Assembly (NCBI GenBank): GCA_018645005.1
Contig: JABGPJ010000110.1
Coordinates: forward strand, 39,429-103,428
DNA: 64,000 nt
Reading direction: 5' to 3'
Source: Deltaproteobacteria bacterium
GTDB taxonomy: Bacteria > SAR324 > XYD2-FULL-50-16
The first letter of the stretch is position 1, and each line of letters starts with the position of its first letter. Made by a program: the position numbers and the translations under genes. The notes under the pieces were generated by a model that saw only the letters and a program-made list of their open reading frames with translations, searched no databases and was not told the origin of the DNA. Of the stretch, positions 5,667 to 60,166 are shown piece after piece.

Positions 5667-6629
5667 ATGAAGCTGATAGAAGAACGGCTCGATAAAGTAA
5701 ATGAGACCCTTGAAAAAGAATCTGCAGAATGGCGGCCTAAAGATCGAGAGGGCAGATCCGGCGGCCTCATTCTGTTACGTCAGGATATTCCAACTCTGAT
5801 CGTTCCTGATTTGCACGGTCGGCGTAATTACCTGCCGGACTTGTTGCGTTACAAATTTAAAGATAAAACTGTTTTTGAACTTTTGAAAACAGACAGGATT
5901 CAGGTCGTCTGCGTCGGTGACGGGATGCATTCGGAAAGAAGAGGCAAGGAGAGGTGGCAGACCGCTTTTGCTGAGTATAAAAACGGGTTTGAAGATTGCC
6001 CGGCCATGACTGAGGAAATGACTGAGAATTTTCAGACGATGGCGATGGTCATGAAACTTAAAGTGGCGTTTCCACAACAGTTCCATTTTCTGAAAGGTAA
6101 CCATGAGAACATTCTGGACGAAGCCGGTAATGGCAACCATCCGTTCAGAAAGTTCGCGGCTGAAGGACCTATGACGGCCTCTTATGTCAAAAAGTTCTAT
6201 GGCGATGCTTTTTTAAACAGGTATGATCGATTTGAGAAGAATCTGCCGCTGTTGACCCGTGGCAAGTATTTTGTGATCACCCACGCTCGTCCCAAGAAAG
6301 TGTATTCGATAGATGAGGTGATCAATTTCCGGTCTGAACCCGCAGTGACCGAAGGACTCACCTGGACCCGCAGTCAGAATGCTGAGGAGGGAGCAATTCC
6401 GAGTATGCTGAACGAACTGATTGATAGCTCAATTACTCCCCGTTTCTGGTTTTGTGGACATACGTCCCTGAAAACCAGATACAAGTATTGGCCTGAGGAC
6501 GCTTTGATCGAAATTCACAACCCTGACTTAAGGACTGTGGTAATCCTGGATCCGTTAGTGCTCTTTGATTTGGAACGGCATATTGTCGATCTTTCACAAT
6601 CCGCCAACGAAGCCCACCAGCCTGAATAA
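5667..6629 (+). CDS. Calcineurin-like/PPP-type metallophosphoesterase with atypical second motif
   Basis: PDLHGRRNYL, GDGMHSERRG (in place of GDxxDRG), GNHEN, THAR, FCGHT motifs. Confidence 0.8.
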   Translation: MKLIEERLDKVNETLEKESAEWRPKDREGRSGGLILLRQDIPTLIVPDLHGRRNYLPDLLRYKFKDKTVFELLKTDRIQVVCVGDGMHSERRGKERWQTAFAEYKNGFEDCPAMTEEMTENFQTMAMVMKLKVAFPQQFHFLKGNHENILDEAGNGNHPFRKFAAEGPMTASYVKKFYGDAFLNRYDRFEKNLPLLTRGKYFVITHARPKKVYSIDEVINFRSEPAVTEGLTWTRSQNAEEGAIPSMLNELIDSSITPRFWFCGHTSLKTRYKYWPEDALIEIHNPDLRTVVILDPLVLFDLERHIVDLSQSANEAHQPE

Positions 6630-51815: not shown

Positions 51816-52478
51816 ATGAGATTGCAATCAAACGAAAATTTTAAGGATTCTTGGGATGAAGCCCTTGTACAAAAACTTCACGGTGAAATAGCTTTAGACT
51901 TTCTTCGTTGTGAGAATGATCATGCGGTCAACGCATCGGTTGAATTTGTGAAGTTTTTGCACCAAAAAGGTCTGGATAACCAAAATTATCCCTTTTATAT
52001 GCCGCTATTTCTTCACGAGAATGAGAAGGTCATCAGTGCTTTTTTAAGTGACGGGAAAATTCTGAATAGCTTAAAAAAACTGAAACGAAGCCGGCATTTC
52101 ATCGGGCTTTGTTTTGATTTACTGAGGCAGTTTTCTCTGGATACTGTTTATGAAAAGACATTAGAGACCCTTCTTTTGGTTCTCAATCTTAGTTATCGTG
52201 ATGCAGTGTTCGGTTTCGCAAGTTATCCACTATCCCTGAACGAGTTGAATTATATCAGCAAGTTTCTGGATAAGGGCAAACCGCAAGCTAGTAAAATAAA
52301 CAGGATAATTCTTGACATACTCGCGGATTTAGGCGACTTAACTACGAAAGATACAACTGAGCCAACGTTGCTGGAAGTTTGTGCCCGGGCAAATAAGATT
52401 CGAAACGTCTTTTTTGACAACAGAGCTTCTATGGCCGAAATTATTCCGGAGACCATGTTGGTCAAGGGTATCAAATAA
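51816..52478 (+). CDS. Unknown helical family, tandem paralog 1
   Basis: Shares PLSLNELNYISKFLDKGK...NRIILDIL...ANKIRNVFFDNRASMAEIIPETMLVK with the next three ORFs. Confidence 0.75.
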   Translation: MRLQSNENFKDSWDEALVQKLHGEIALDFLRCENDHAVNASVEFVKFLHQKGLDNQNYPFYMPLFLHENEKVISAFLSDGKILNSLKKLKRSRHFIGLCFDLLRQFSLDTVYEKTLETLLLVLNLSYRDAVFGFASYPLSLNELNYISKFLDKGKPQASKINRIILDILADLGDLTTKDTTEPTLLEVCARANKIRNVFFDNRASMAEIIPETMLVKGIK

Positions 52479-52545
52479 TGTAATTTGTTGAGAATGCGTG
52501 CTTTCTGAACTGAGAAGTCCAAAAAATAGTTTACAAGGAGATGAA

Positions 52546-53238
52546 ATGGCCGAAAATAGCGAAACGATTCGCCCAGAGTGGACAACAGAGTCTACCCATC
52601 GGGTTGAAAGCCTCATTTTAAGGAATGCTTTTTCAAGCAGAACCCCCGATGCGACAGAGACCGCCATGGCATATACCCGGTATCTGAGACTGGCAAGAAT
52701 GACAAGCGAAAACTACCCACTGTTTCTGTCACTGTTGGAAATTGAAAACCACTATGTCATCGATTCATTGATCGGTGATGACGACCCTTTTGTCTTTTTT
52801 ACGCCGATTCAACCGACACGCCACTTGCTGAGGGAGTGTTTCAGGTTGCTGACCTTCTGGCATCCGGGCGGCATTTACCCTAAGACCATTTCTATCGTCT
52901 TGGGCGTTTTACAGGCGGCTTATAACCATGCTAAAGACGGCAACGAGATTTACAGGGTTTCTATCAATGACATCAATAACCTTGGAAAGCATTTGAATAA
53001 GGATTCTGGTCAGACGGATCCGGTCAACCGGGCAATTTTAGACGTTCTGGATCGCCTTTCTCTGCTTGAAGGTCAGGGCGACGAAGAGATTGAAGAGTTA
53101 GCCAGGCATTGTCACAATATCAGAACCTATTTCTTTGATCGCAGACGAAAAATGGAAGATATTATCCCACAGGTTCTTCTTGTGAAATCAGACTATCTTG
53201 TGAAAACGGTCGGCCCAAATTTTGTTTTTGAAGACTAA
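52546..53238 (+). CDS. Unknown helical family, tandem paralog 2
   Basis: ENYPLF, HYVIDSLIGDDDPF, SINDINNLGKHLNK, NRAILDVL, CHNIRTYFFDRRRKMEDIIPQVLLVK; RBS AAGGAG upstream of ATG 52546. Confidence 0.8.
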   Translation: MAENSETIRPEWTTESTHRVESLILRNAFSSRTPDATETAMAYTRYLRLARMTSENYPLFLSLLEIENHYVIDSLIGDDDPFVFFTPIQPTRHLLRECFRLLTFWHPGGIYPKTISIVLGVLQAAYNHAKDGNEIYRVSINDINNLGKHLNKDSGQTDPVNRAILDVLDRLSLLEGQGDEEIEELARHCHNIRTYFFDRRRKMEDIIPQVLLVKSDYLVKTVGPNFVFED

Positions 53239-53256
53239 TAAAAACCGGAGGTAATC

Positions 53257-54111
53257 ATGTTATTGACTGATAGACGTAAGATTTATTCGCAGATAGAAAT
53301 AGAACAGATACGAAACGACGTTCTGCAGCAGATTTTGAAGTGTGGTACCCCGGATGCTGTAGAGGCATGCATCACTTACGCTCGGTTTCTGAGTCTGACC
53401 GGTATTACTAATGAGAACTACCCGCTTTTCATTAAGGTGCTGGAGGCTGGTAATCACTGGGTGGTTGACGGACTGATCGGTGATAGGGACCCCTTTCTCT
53501 TTTTGAGTTCCATTCAACCCAATTACAATATTCTTGAATCGTGTTTTAAGCTTCTCACCGAAAAACATCCGGGTGAGCTCTATCCCAAATCTCTTTCGGT
53601 AGTCCTTGGTGTTCTTCAAGCGACATACAATGTTCCTGAAGACGGATACAACATTTACCGGCTCACAATTTACGACTTGAATACACTGGGCAAGCATCTG
53701 AACGAAGAGATTGGCCAGGAAGACTCTTTAAACCGGGTGATTTTAGATATTCTTCATAAAATTGCGCAGCTTAAAGGGATGCTGGGAGCAGAAGGACTGG
53801 AAGGTGAAGACCGGGACAAGGAAGAGCTTGCGATACACGCTAATGAAATCATGAGTCATTTTTTCGATGACACTAAACGCCTCTTCCAGGTGATCCCACA
53901 GGTGCTGCTGATCAGAAAGGATTACCGTAATTATGAAATACAGCCGAGAGCAGAAGTACGTTTTGAGGATTCCAGTATTTATGACCTTGACAATATGGCC
54001 GACGATCCATACAGCGACTCTGCATCCGATGAGGAGTTTGAGGAGGAGGTCTACGAAGAGGAAGAGGTAGTGGAAAGCCCCGAGGAAAATCTTGAGCCCG
54101 ATCCGGCATAG
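53257..54111 (+). CDS. Unknown helical family, tandem paralog 3, with acidic C-terminal tail
   Basis: ENYPLF, HWVVDGLIGDRDPF, TIYDLNTLGKHLNE, NRVILDIL, ANEIMSHFFDDTKRLFQVIPQVLLIRKDY; tail DEEFEEEVYEEEEVVESPEE. Confidence 0.8.
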   Translation: MLLTDRRKIYSQIEIEQIRNDVLQQILKCGTPDAVEACITYARFLSLTGITNENYPLFIKVLEAGNHWVVDGLIGDRDPFLFLSSIQPNYNILESCFKLLTEKHPGELYPKSLSVVLGVLQATYNVPEDGYNIYRLTIYDLNTLGKHLNEEIGQEDSLNRVILDILHKIAQLKGMLGAEGLEGEDRDKEELAIHANEIMSHFFDDTKRLFQVIPQVLLIRKDYRNYEIQPRAEVRFEDSSIYDLDNMADDPYSDSASDEEFEEEVYEEEEVVESPEENLEPDPA

Positions 54112-54127
54112 AATTTAAAGATATCAA

Positions 54128-54147
54128 GGCCGGTTTCTGAACCGGCC
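54128..54147 (+). terminator. Perfect GC-rich hairpin between paralogs 3 and 4
   Basis: GGCCGGTT-TCTG-AACCGGCC, 8 bp perfect stem just after the paralog 3 stop. No T tract. Confidence 0.45.
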
Positions 54148-54294
54148 GGGAACCGATCGTGCAGATTAAAAAGAAGTAAGAATTTACCCCGTGATTTGGT
54201 TCCTCTCTGTGCTTTCGGGAAATCTTTCAACCACCTAATAACTCTGTCTCATTCGAGATATCTGATCAAGAAACATTGTACGCTGGAAACGCAT

Positions 54295-54963
54295 ATGGCT
54301 AAAGAAGAATTCAATCGTTTCATTCAGAATACGATGCTTGAAATTATCGAGTGCAAAGATGTCAGGAGTTCGAGCGCCCTTTATGCCTACGCAAATTTTC
54401 TTAATAGAAAAAAGACCCGCTACGAAGATATCCCACTTTATCTGAAGATTCTCAAAACGAACAACCAATACGCCATCGATGCATTAATGAGGGGCCATGT
54501 CGCTGTAAAATTCTTCGATTTCATTCGAGTTCCCAATATTTATGTGCTGAAAGGTATTTTTGAAATTCTTGAGCTTTATGGGAAAAATAGTCTTTCGAAC
54601 CAGACATTGAAATCTTTTTGTGGCTTTTTCAAGCGGGTGTACCGGATGGCTGCTGAAGGCTTTAGAATCTGTCCACTGACGGTTGCCGAAGTGAACAGTC
54701 TCGGGAAATATCTGGATGAGAAAAAAACACAAAATTACTATTTTAATCGTGAAATACTGGATATTCTCTTCTTTTTAACCGAGCTGGATGATGATTGTGA
54801 GAGTAGTCCTGAGATGAGAGTCGTTGCACGTCAGGCCAGTCGAATTCGTTCCGATTTCTTCGATCAGAAGCGCTCACTCGCTCAGTCCATGACGGAAGTC
54901 GCCCTTAATAAATCAACCGATGAAGGCCCTGGTATCTCACCCGAAGGCGCATTCGTCGAGTGA
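54295..54963 (+). CDS. Unknown helical family, tandem paralog 4 (most diverged)
   Basis: EDIPLYLKIL, QYAIDALM, TVAEVNSLGKYLDE, NREILDIL, ASRIRSDFFDQKRSLAQSMTEVALNK; start likely MAKEEF at 54295. Confidence 0.72.
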   Translation: MAKEEFNRFIQNTMLEIIECKDVRSSSALYAYANFLNRKKTRYEDIPLYLKILKTNNQYAIDALMRGHVAVKFFDFIRVPNIYVLKGIFEILELYGKNSLSNQTLKSFCGFFKRVYRMAAEGFRICPLTVAEVNSLGKYLDEKKTQNYYFNREILDILFFLTELDDDCESSPEMRVVARQASRIRSDFFDQKRSLAQSMTEVALNKSTDEGPGISPEGAFVE

Positions 54964-55027: not shown

Positions 55028-55984
55028 CTACATATCACCTAATAGATATTTCTGTTTTTTCTGTTTCAGGTCAGCATGTCGAATCTTATATTCCAGGCTG
55101 TTATTGAAGGTAAGATAGGTGCTTTTATCGACCAGATTACTATATAGAATAACATGATTTTTAGAGTCCAGGATATCGACCCAGACAGAATCATCTGTTC
55201 CCCATTTCCACATGGGATTGTGGCCGACGATAAACGGATGTTCCTTTGAGCATCCCAAGGCAGCTCTTTGTCTATCGAGATCATCCGGGCCGTACTCTTT
55301 TTTACTGGGCGAGGAACGCGTTTCGTTCAGGCGGTTCCAGGTGAGTTGTCTCAGCAGCGGTCCGGATTCGGCGCCACGGATGTCGATAAGCTCATCTCGG
55401 TAAATACCACCTCTCACAGGGCCCGCATGGACTGCCAGGAAATGCTTGTGGATAACAAAAACCGGCAGTGAATTGTAGAAAGTCTGCATCAGGTTGACAT
55501 AGTCTTTTCCCCTGGTTTCCTGGACGGCATTGTGGTACGCCAGCCCCTGTTTGATACCGCTCTTTCCGAGAAGTTCACTGAAGGTGTCATGATTGCCAAG
55601 CAGATAAAAAACGTTATCCGGATAGTCATTGATCAAATGGATAATGATATCCATAATTTCAATTGAGGTATCCATTTCCTGGAGATGTCCTACCCTTTCA
55701 TCATGAACTGAGTCTCCCAGAAATATCATGATGGCTTTATTTTGTTTCAGTTTGTACAGGTTCTGGGAATCCATCAGTATCGCCTTTAAATTCTGCTTGT
55801 TTGCATGTAAATCTCCAACGATGATCACCTCGCGATTATCATCTTCCGGAAATTCCAGCAGTCCGCCCGGTTTTTTGTTCGTGTTGAGTGGTCGGATGGA
55901 TGGGTCGATTGCTAATACGTTTCTGATGGCCAACTGTACTTTTTGATGATGTGTTAGTTCGCCGTAGGTGTAGTAGTCAGGCAT
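55028..55984 (-). CDS. Calcineurin-like/PPP-type metallophosphoesterase with atypical second motif
   Basis: IIVGDLHANKQNL, FLGDSVHDERVG, LLGNHDTF, AVHAG, VGHNPMW. Confidence 0.82.
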   Translation of the reverse strand: MPDYYTYGELTHHQKVQLAIRNVLAIDPSIRPLNTNKKPGGLLEFPEDDNREVIIVGDLHANKQNLKAILMDSQNLYKLKQNKAIMIFLGDSVHDERVGHLQEMDTSIEIMDIIIHLINDYPDNVFYLLGNHDTFSELLGKSGIKQGLAYHNAVQETRGKDYVNLMQTFYNSLPVFVIHKHFLAVHAGPVRGGIYRDELIDIRGAESGPLLRQLTWNRLNETRSSPSKKEYGPDDLDRQRAALGCSKEHPFIVGHNPMWKWGTDDSVWVDILDSKNHVILYSNLVDKSTYLTFNNSLEYKIRHADLKQKKQKYLLGDM

Positions 55985-56645
55985 ATCTTCAACTGATGGT
56001 TCCGCTTTTCCTTGTACGTCATTCCAGGCAAAGAAAAGTGAGATTAACTGTCTGAAAATGGATTGATTTTGGCGCCTTTAAAGATCCGACCAGTATCTGT
56101 TCAATGTATCTAAAGTCGTTGTTCACAATTAATAAACTGGTAGAAATTCGGGCCAGAAAATAAAATCGGTCTTGGGATTGATCTTTGCTGTTAAGAAGCT
56201 TTATCATTCTAACCTTTTAATGATTAATAAGGCAAATATCAAATAACAGTTAATAACACCATATGGATAGCGGGCATGATAGGGAGGCCGGATTCTGTGT
56301 TCTCTGGAATCATTTACTTAGATGTCTATCTGTGTAATACTTCTCCAAAACAGACATCAGAGTACTGTAATACACAGATATTTCAGAAAATACAACGGAT
56401 CAGGCCGCACCTCAGAATGGATGCGTCTTTAGCAATCTGGTTGTCAACTGTAGATGATCGGAAGCTATGCTGAAACTGTTTCAATCAAACCACTGAACCG
56501 GTTTCCGCCATGGACGCTCTTTTCCTGTTATGATAGGGTAACAGAGTGTTCACCGCGTTTGATAGCCTGAATGGAAATAGAGATATCCCAAGCAGATTTT
56601 AAATCTTATCTGAAAACAAATAACAGCTTCAGTGATAGGAGCCCT

Positions 56646-57020
56646 ATGTCAGAAAATAGACGTCATTTTAGCCGGGTGGGTTTTCAATCAACCGTAATCG
56701 TAGGGATTCAGGAACAGGAATACCAGGCGGAGTTGATTGATATCTCGCTTAAAGGCGCATTAATAACATTGGAAGGTGATTCATCATTCGAAAATAACAA
56801 ACGGTGTGTCTTTGAACTCAAACTCGATGCAAATTCCATTGCTGTGAAAACGGATGCGCTGATTGTCTACAGTCACGAAAATCAGCTGGGATTGAAGTTT
56901 CAAAATCTGGACCTGGAAAGTATGACCCACTTACGCCGTTTGCTGGAGTTGAACCTGGGCGATTCTGATAAGATCCAGAATGAGCTGTTTTTTCTGGTGA
57001 ATCCGACGCAGGGAAGTTGA
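56646..57020 (+). CDS. PilZ domain protein
   Basis: ENRRHFSRVGFQSTVIVG...EYQAELIDISLKGALITLEGD (RxxxR...D/NxSxxG). RBS AGGAG upstream of ATG 56646; the longer ORF starts at 56571. Confidence 0.8.
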   Translation: MSENRRHFSRVGFQSTVIVGIQEQEYQAELIDISLKGALITLEGDSSFENNKRCVFELKLDANSIAVKTDALIVYSHENQLGLKFQNLDLESMTHLRRLLELNLGDSDKIQNELFFLVNPTQGS

Positions 57021-57329: not shown

Positions 57330-59168
57330 ATGAGAAGGGAGATCATGAGTCCGCTGAAACCTGTCGAACGGTCTTTGAGAAGCCAGAACGGCTCCATCAT
57401 TGACGATTTATCCCAACAAATGCTTCAGCTTGATATTCAACTGAACTCAAACATTCCGTCGACCCTGTTTATCAGTGATCTTCACGGGGCCGGAGACCGC
57501 TTTATTTCGATTCTGCGGGGACGTTTCGGCATGTTGTATCAGACCTGTATCGAGGCCCTGCCCAAAACCTTCAGCTCGCACAAAATCCAGTATATCGTCG
57601 ATATCATCCGCAAACAGCGTTATTTTAAGGACGATAGTGTCAATATGGATATCCAGGACATAATCACCTGCTTTGTTCAGATTCTGAAATATAAATTCAG
57701 CACAATTGAACACAATATTAATGATGTAATTCAGGATGAATACCGTGATATCATAAGCCGGATGATATCCGGCTTGCCAGTCCCAGACCCGGTTTATGAA
57801 GTGAGTATCGTCTCTCATCGAATTATCGAACATCTGGCGTCTGCCATCAAACGGATTCTGCTGGATCGTATCATGGTTCTGGGGGATGTATTTGATCGAG
57901 GGCCGCAACCTGACAAAATAATTCGAATTTTGGCATCCAAGTGGTACCGGAACATGATCCATTATGTCTTTGGCAATCACGACATTTTATGGATGGGAGC
58001 CGTCGCCGGCAACCGGTCTCTTATTGCCGAAGCTATGCGCATCTCCAGTCGTTATGATCACATGGAACTGCTGAAGCGCCTGGGGTTCGATACCTCAAAA
58101 CTGGTAAAATTTGCCAAAAAGGTCTATCCACCTAAAAAGGTTACTGGGAACTTCAAGGCCCAAACCTCCCAGGCTCGAAGTATGGAAAAGGCCCTGGCGA
58201 TCATTCAGTTTAAGCTTGAGGAAGAGACGATTAAAAAACACCCTGAATATGAGATGGACTCGCGGCTCTGGCTGAAAAGACTCATGAAAATGATTGTGGA
58301 TGATGATGTGAAAGAGTTGAACGACACCCATTTCCCGACAATCGATCTGAAAAACCCGCGCCTGCTGTCAAAAGAAGAAAAAGTGGTCATCGACGATCTG
58401 GAGATACAGTTCAAAACCAACAAAAAGCTCAAAAAGTTGATGCGATTCTTCTTTGAAAAGGGGGAAACATTTATTATTCACAATAATATGCTGAATATTC
58501 ATGCGTTGATTCCCTCAACTGAAAACGGTGAGTTTGACGAATTTCTGAGTCGCAAGGGACAAAACTTGTTGAACCATATCCAGAGGAGCATCAAGCGGAT
58601 TGGACAGGCCTACCTTTCAGGTAAAAAACAGAAGGAGGTCGATTTGGCGTTGATGTTTTATCTATGGTGTGGACCAAAGTCTCCTTTTTTCGGCAAAGAT
58701 GCCATGAAAACCTTTGAACGGTATTTTCTGATAGACAAGACGACCCATAAGGAAAAGACCCTATACTGGTCTAAAAACATGGAGAAGAAAGAGTTCAAGA
58801 AAAAAATTATGGATGAGTTCGGCATTAATCGTGTTATTTATGGTCATACTCCGGTTGACTTTACGAAGGGAAAGAGTATGGCCAGTGAAGATGGGGTCGC
58901 AATCAATATCGATGGTGGTTTTGCTGCCGCCTACTATAACCGTGGTCATGCGTTGGTGCACACACCGCATCAGCTATATGGTATTATTTTGCCTACACCG
59001 GAGGAGATGAAAAAGGCCTCCACCAATCTGGAGACCGTTCCATTATCTGTAGAAATCATAGATGAATTCACCTCTCCGGTTAAGTTCAGAGATACCGCCG
59101 AGGGCAAGATAATTAAGAAAAGACGGGACGAGATTCTGAAAGAGCTGAAAACGATTCAACCTGAATAA
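57330..59168 (+). CDS. fbp: Fructose-1,6-bisphosphatase class III
   Basis: 612 aa; [97 protein letters not shown]. Confidence 0.92.
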
Positions 59169-59218
59169 CGATTCTTAGGAAAGACCTTTGGCCACAATGT
59201 ATCAAAGTGCGAGGAATA

Positions 59219-60166
59219 ATGGATATTAACTTTGGGATGGAAATGGTACGTGCGACCGAGATCGCAGCATTGAGTGCCGCACGCCTGCAGGGACTGGGAG
59301 AAGTGAGTAACATTCTCAATTCTACCAGGGAAGCCTTTTATAAAACCCTCAATCGGTTACAGATTGAGGGGGTGATTAAGAATGATAGATTTATGGGCCG
59401 GGAAAATACCTTCCAAATGCCCATTAAAGTGGGAAAGGGCGGATTGAAGAAAGATATCCTGGCAATCGCTCTTGAAGGTCACAACGCTGCTGCAATTGGA
59501 CGGAACAATGCCATGTCCTGTGGTGTTTTGACAGTTGAGGGGGGTATTCAGGCCCTGCCGAACCTGAGTATGTTTAAAATTGTCGTTGGTCCGGAAGCAT
59601 ACGGTGTAGTTGATATCTTGCAACCCCCTGCGATTAACATTAAACGGGTCTCCCGGGCCCTGAAAAAGTATACCGAGAGTGTCACGATTTGCATTCTGGA
59701 CCATGCACGCCATCACCGTCTGATTCACGAAGTAAAAGAGACCGGCGCCCGGATCAAACTGATAACCGAGGGAGAGATTTCCGGCTGTCTGGCCGCTATC
59801 ACGGGTAAAAAAGTCGATATGTTCATGGGGTACGGTTTTGCACCAGAAGGCGTGATGATCGCTGCTGCCGTTAAATGCCTTGGTGGTTATTTTGAAGGGA
59901 AGATATTTTATGAAAACGAGCGAGATAAAGAATTTGCCCGATCAGAAGGTATTGATGATTTTGAGAAGATTTTCAGAGCTGAAGATTTGATTTTGACCAA
60001 TGATGTTGCTATCGCAGCCACCGGTGTGACAGATGGAAAATTTTTAGAAGGTGTTGATTTAACTCCCAATGGAGCGATTACGCACTCCTTTATCGCCAGG
60101 GGGGAATCCCACACATATCGGAAGCTTGAAACACGACACTTTTTTGACTATAAACCGGTTTATTAG
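59219..60166 (+). CDS. GlpX-fold (class II FBPase/SBPase-like) protein with degenerate active-site motifs
   Basis: Full-length resemblance to GlpX (EMVRATEIAALSAAR...VGPEAYGVVDILQP...GYGFAPEGVMIAAAVKCLGG...TNDVAIAATGVTDGKFLEGVD...ARGESHTYRKLETRHFFD), but GEGEIDEAP and DPIEGT motifs are replaced. Confidence 0.8.
   Translation: MDINFGMEMVRATEIAALSAARLQGLGEVSNILNSTREAFYKTLNRLQIEGVIKNDRFMGRENTFQMPIKVGKGGLKKDILAIALEGHNAAAIGRNNAMSCGVLTVEGGIQALPNLSMFKIVVGPEAYGVVDILQPPAINIKRVSRALKKYTESVTICILDHARHHRLIHEVKETGARIKLITEGEISGCLAAITGKKVDMFMGYGFAPEGVMIAAAVKCLGGYFEGKIFYENERDKEFARSEGIDDFEKIFRAEDLILTNDVAIAATGVTDGKFLEGVDLTPNGAITHSFIARGESHTYRKLETRHFFDYKPVY

Follow-up and report, generated by a model that had tools for sequence, protein, structure and literature searches.

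The window, by which we mean the whole stretch of 64,000 nucleotides that was analysed, comes from a genome of a SAR324-like family (hereafter f1) and harbours a tandem array of four genes with a convergent phosphatase gene downstream. The following features were annotated at the locus:

51816-52478, forward strand: p1, paralog type P1, 220 aa, helical, start codon ATG at 51816
52546-53238, forward strand: p2, paralog type A, 230 aa, slowest-evolving member
53257-54111, forward strand: p3, paralog type B, 284 aa, acidic C-terminal tail, start codon ATG at 53257
54128-54147, forward strand: perfect hairpin between B and C, 8-bp stem, no T-run
54295-54963, forward strand: p4, paralog type C, 222 aa, fastest-evolving among p1-p4
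55028-55984, reverse strand: PPP-type metallophosphatase (MPP), 318 aa, convergent with the array, Pfam Metallophos match at 1.6e-10

For p2, the ORF listing offers an alternative GTG start at 52498, but ATG at 52546 is preferred because AAGGAG lies upstream of it and every f1 ortholog has a length of about 230 aa. Likewise, the longer ORF of p4 begins with TTG at 54196, and ATG at 54295 is preferred since the orthologs measure 220-225 aa.

The four proteins are homologous. All six pairwise BLASTP comparisons were significant (every E <= 8e-22), with values of 1e-31 for p1/p2, 1e-26 for p1/p3, 8e-22 for p1/p4, 2e-25 for p2/p4, and 8e-25 for p3/p4, and p2 and p3 were the closest pair (4e-73, 45% identity). 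Smith-Waterman z-scores ranged from 30 to 94 against 300 shuffles. This all-versus-all comparison is in agreement with the original prediction, made from the DNA letters alone, of four consecutive related ORFs on the same strand with the highest identity between paralogs 2 and 3. The shared anchors quoted there are present in the p1-p4 alignment, the acidic tail ascribed to paralog 3 was found (pI 4.4), and so was the perfect hairpin placed between paralogs 3 and 4. The genome of the window, which is 68% complete, contains exactly these four copies of the family.

The array genes are separated by gaps of 67 nt (p1-p2), 18 nt (p2-p3), and 183 nt (p3-p4); in the Spirochaetota operons measured, the A-B gap is 16-28 nt, versus 18 nt in the window. 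The hairpin was considered as a distinctive element and rejected as such, as the 101-nt B-C region folds no better than shuffled sequences (z -1.0). In three of five relatives (G004, G008, and G009), the B-C gap possesses a strong stem followed by a T-run, resembling a terminator. The hairpin of the window is a possible terminator or attenuator, and transcription of C apart from p1-p3, a question raised in the original prediction, is plausible, because these three relatives carry a stem and T-run at that place.

No significant match to p1-p4 was detected in Pfam, NCBIfam, PHROGs, or PDB, and p2 had no match in PADLOC. A Pfam scan of 76 family members revealed no significant family, and the search of PDB with a deep profile was likewise empty. 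The candidates COG6_C (best Pfam score 0.001), Dak2, and ATP-cone were discarded as sub-threshold matches of single members. The AlphaFold2 model of p2, built from 76 sequences, is all-alpha and confident (pLDDT 91.8, pTM 0.86), so that the searches and the model together bear out the description of an unrecognised helical family. The top PDB neighbours of this model in Foldseek are mostly alpha-solenoids of the TOG, ARM, HEAT, and MIF4G kind. Nevertheless, none is significant (best E 0.25, TM mostly 0.2-0.4) and HEAT or Arm Pfam repeats had no match at E 0.01 in the 76 members; the alpha-solenoid is therefore taken as a hint of architecture, and membership is not claimed. The concept of a phosphatase acting on a helical scaffold is akin to what is found with ARM/HEAT/TOG scaffolds. 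Comparison of the p2 fold with viral models gave no match.

The array is present in six out of ten f1 genomes, each with exactly four copies. In the six f1 genomes examined, the gene order is the same, with the array located between a divergent rsgA and the convergent phosphatase. The array was absent from all 42 genomes analysed elsewhere in the phylum of the window lineage. Exact peptide patterns taken from p2 were used to search other phyla, and protein A was the single query for the searches of genome contigs; the genomes compared are mostly MAGs, and the label Spirochaetota is that of the centre record's NCBI lineage. Members of the family were detected in 11 of the 296 genomes of an even draw of the Spirochaetota, mostly in four or five copies. 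Orthologs of p2 share 54-58% identity in Spirochaetota MAGs, most of which have their own set of four.

Phylogenetic analysis resolved five paralog types, namely P1, A, B, C, and D. The proteins p1, p2, p3, and p4 fall in separate groups of the tree, each with Spirochaetota members, whereas no type D protein was detected in f1. Most carriers possess four or five copies, and where these were assigned to types, no type occurred twice in a genome. The joining of the f1 and Spirochaetota B proteins received moderate support, as did that of the two C groups. The P1 group is a single clade with 100/100 support, in which the copies of the Spirochaetota genomes G190 and G116 are 41-42% identical to their best P1 reference, and p1 is 40-80% identical to its orthologs in the five other f1 genomes. 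An assignment of p1 to type D, based on gene order and on a long branch in a first tree, was dropped, as G190 and G116 hold both P1 and D. These two genomes carry all five types, and their P1-A-B-C order matches that of the window. According to the tree, the paralogs are ortholog groups older than the split between the copies of the window lineage and those of the Spirochaetota. This corrects the original prediction, which had invoked repeated duplication, in one respect: the array is not the product of a local burst. The f1 copies of P1, A, B, and C all group with G190 and G116, which suggests that the whole set was transferred between phyla. The Spirochaetota would be the likelier donors, because the family is broader there.

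The types differ in rate. Within f1, the orthologs of p2 (type A) are 75-90% identical and those of p4 (type C) 41-68%. A and B evolve slowly, and P1 and C evolve faster but are constrained; for P1, Ka/Ks was 0.084 between the window and G001, and saturation of synonymous sites affects most pairs. Between G008 and G004, the Ka of type A was 0.044, compared with 0.147 for LeuS and 0.301 for RsgA. With protein A changing at a lower rate than leucyl-tRNA synthetase, the function must matter to the carriers.

The convergent gene at 55028-55984, which had been described as a PPP-like phosphatase possibly linked to the array, belongs to the PPP family. Its nearest solved relatives in a PDB profile search are BSU1 (9e-7) and PP5 (2e-5). 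It shares with PPP Ser/Thr phosphatases such as these a profile similarity with E-values of 9e-7 to 1e-4 and the metal-site motifs: the dinuclear-metal pattern GDxH, GD, GNH, H, and GH is invariant in 19 orthologs, in which GDLH, GD..H, GNHD, H(A/G)GP, and GHN are conserved. However, none of these 19 has the full GDxVDRG and GNHE signatures; a GDxxH(D/N)(D/E)-like motif and GNHD are found instead, and the enzyme is tied to an unrelated helical family. Among 11 relatives, with the window genome included, close MPP orthologs were present in all four genomes with the array and in none of the seven others. In the 296 Spirochaetota genomes, MPP was found in nine of the 11 array genomes, and four weaker matches came from genomes with neither array nor kinase. 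The suspected link between array and phosphatase is supported by this co-occurrence and by synteny recurring across f1 and the Spirochaetota. Genome G116 possesses a second MPP copy adjoining the module and fused to two CBS domains (L089:14924-16327, Pfam CBS 3e-31), hinting at an input of adenine nucleotides. The ORF at L094:5751-7154 matches this fusion in length (467 aa). The window also encodes a second, distant PPP-like phosphatase at 5667-6629 (profile E 4e-13), with similar matches in genomes lacking the array, which is possibly an ancestor-type relative of the MPP of the module.

A second enzyme, a kinase of about 300 aa, is also linked to the array. Its gene adjoins MPP in Spirochaetota clusters and in the f1 genome G006, and in G006 and the majority of Spirochaetota it forms part of the cluster. 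In the genome of the window the kinase gene (C107:6041-6940) shares a contig with the array at a distance of 84 kb, outside the window and so out of reach of the original prediction, as was type D; G001 and G004 have the kinase on a different contig. Among the 11 relatives (own genome included), the kinase was found in four out of four array genomes and in none of the seven others. Nine of the 296 Spirochaetota genomes have a kinase match and all nine carry the array; they are the same nine in which array and MPP occur together. The naive hypergeometric p for the overlap of kinase and array is 1e-15, and this value, like the co-occurrence counts in general, ignores relatedness. No kinase match was obtained in the array genomes G076 and G250, the other two of the 11, which could be due to missing contigs.

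The kinase possesses an invariant DEDRNPNNY motif, an ID(Y/F) motif, and the invariant residues K72, D152, N157, and D174. Neither Pfam, the HipA domains included, nor PDB sequences gave a match. Its AlphaFold2 model (pLDDT 84) is predicted to adopt the fold of the HipA/CtkA/PI4K clan, as Foldseek retrieved CtkA (1.4e-4), PI4KIIalpha (2.2e-4), and HipA (2.3e-4) with probability 1.0 and TM values of 0.4-0.5, and HipT was also among the matches. The ATP-site pattern of Lys, Asp-x4-Asn, and a downstream Asp is shared with these kinases, and we take it to be the counterpart of the HipA residues. The kinase differs from them in its partners, a PPP phosphatase and four to five helical paralogs, and reading the neighbours of kinase and array by eye brought up no HipB. 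The fold is compatible with a protein, a lipid, or a small molecule as substrate. A gene with an MtxA Ig-like and an MtxA C-terminal domain (5e-17 and 1e-15) was found at L070:4579-5523, outside the window but on the same contig. In G000, G001, and G004 such a gene directly precedes that of the kinase, and a DHH-like protein without Pfam match is encoded downstream. A connection with magnetotaxis through the MtxA-like gene was set aside; nothing of the kind was noticed in the Spirochaetota clusters.

The arrangement of the module is partly shared between the phyla. In G006 of f1 and G116 of the Spirochaetota, P1-A-B-C faces the convergent kinase gene, behind which MPP follows on the same strand as the kinase. 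Another Spirochaetota group has a single run of D-MPP-kinase-A-B-C, with MPP and kinase overlapping. One Spirochaetota MAG encodes a natural in-frame fusion of A and B of 442 aa (L056:7980-9305), although this could be an assembly artefact.

Many Spirochaetota clusters encode an additional protein of 500-700 aa with a kinase-like N-terminal domain. The usual HRD and DFG residues are missing from the copies read by eye, and the protein is therefore probably a pseudokinase. Some clusters also harbour a protein with a conserved helical N-terminal domain and a hydrophobic segment, which probably spans the membrane. This protein is limited to array genomes (4 of 296 Spirochaetota). A relationship of its N-terminal domain to the paralog family was tried and dismissed (hhalign E 0.12, probability 0.5). 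A full-length profile of the membrane protein found no match in 11 relatives of the window, a weak negative, and it therefore seems dispensable to the module; neither the kinase-like nor the membrane accessory appears to be needed in f1.

Other genes were noted beside the phosphatase. Relatives possess an HD-domain (HD-GYP-like) gene between MPP and a PilZ gene (L029:5023-6405 and L032:13018-14373); the interval 55984-56571 of the window contains no HD-domain ORF and the PilZ gene is still present at 56571-57020. Further downstream, a Firmicute-type class III fructose-1,6-bisphosphatase (57330-59168, Pfam 2.5e-108) adjoins an unrelated GlpX class II enzyme (59207-60166, 4e-87), and this pair is kept in G001, G008, and G009.

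Several explanations were weighed for the association of the paralogs with the two enzymes. We consider it slightly likelier right than wrong that the paralogs form a hetero-oligomeric helical scaffold or adaptor, with the dedicated kinase and the PPP phosphatase controlling its state. A hetero-oligomer is the most economical reading, because carriers retain a single copy of each of the four to five paralogs. In such a complex, which would be all-helical, P1, A, B, and C would be single-copy subunits, and A and B the putative conserved core: no other pair is as similar, the two genes lie close together, and one genome has them joined in a single protein. The types P1, C, and, in the Spirochaetota, D may be faster-evolving subunits that are peripheral or face the target. 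In this scheme, the kinase would phosphorylate either the scaffold itself or one of its bound clients, the phosphatase would undo the modification, and the output would lie in the state of the complex. Complex formation, the action of the enzymes on the complex, and the direction of signalling are what we infer from the observed associations.

Instead of forming a scaffold, the helical proteins could be kinase substrates, or regulators that inhibit the kinase like an antitoxin, in the manner of HipB and HipA; the module would then serve growth control or be of toxin-antitoxin type, with the phosphatase as antidote. The kinase fold, nearest to CtkA, PI4KII, and HipA with HipT among the matches, and the sporadic distribution of the array are in line with this. 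Yet four to five co-conserved paralogs are too many for an antitoxin, a HipB-like protein was not noticed nearby, the array adjoins the housekeeping genes rsgA and leuS in a context stable across f1, A is more conserved than LeuS, and neither plasmids nor phages nor viral contigs yielded a relative, so that we regard this explanation as improbable. The patchy distribution and the probable transfer between phyla would also suit an anti-phage defence system, as would a weak similarity of the kinase to KwaB of PADLOC (7.8e-4). However, that match covers only about 80 residues, PADLOC was empty for p2 and the phosphatase, and no mobile or defence-island context was found; the chromosomal context is conserved and purifying selection is strong. 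Defence is thus very unlikely, and it becomes less likely, together with the toxin-antitoxin reading, because of the housekeeping context, the stability in f1, and the lack of plasmid, phage, or viral relatives among those found.

An explanation of a different kind gives the paralogs the role of binding partners or chaperones for an assembly in the membrane or envelope, with kinase and phosphatase as accessories and the pseudokinase-like and single-TM neighbours as anchors. It draws on the presence of both neighbours in Spirochaetota clusters and on the restriction of the latter to array genomes, but is set against the unmatched membrane protein in the relatives of the window, itself a weak negative, and we judge it to be unlikely.

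Returning to the scaffold under control of the two enzymes, a broader proposal can be put forward tentatively, and we think it rather less probable than its opposite. The locus would encode a platform of four to five co-inherited paralogs under a PI4K/HipA-fold kinase and a PPP phosphatase, passed between the Spirochaetota and the SAR324-like lineage, and serving as a signalling or cell-organisation complex without a described counterpart, in its logic similar to eukaryotic phosphatase-scaffold complexes. A search of the open-access literature, with subscription papers outside its coverage, found nothing describing the module. Four genes that would otherwise be annotated as hypothetical become part of a module open to testing: a paralog family without entry in the libraries searched is tied, through synteny and co-occurrence in two phyla, to one particular kinase and one particular PPP phosphatase. 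If true, the phospho-switch would be an undescribed bacterial signalling architecture.
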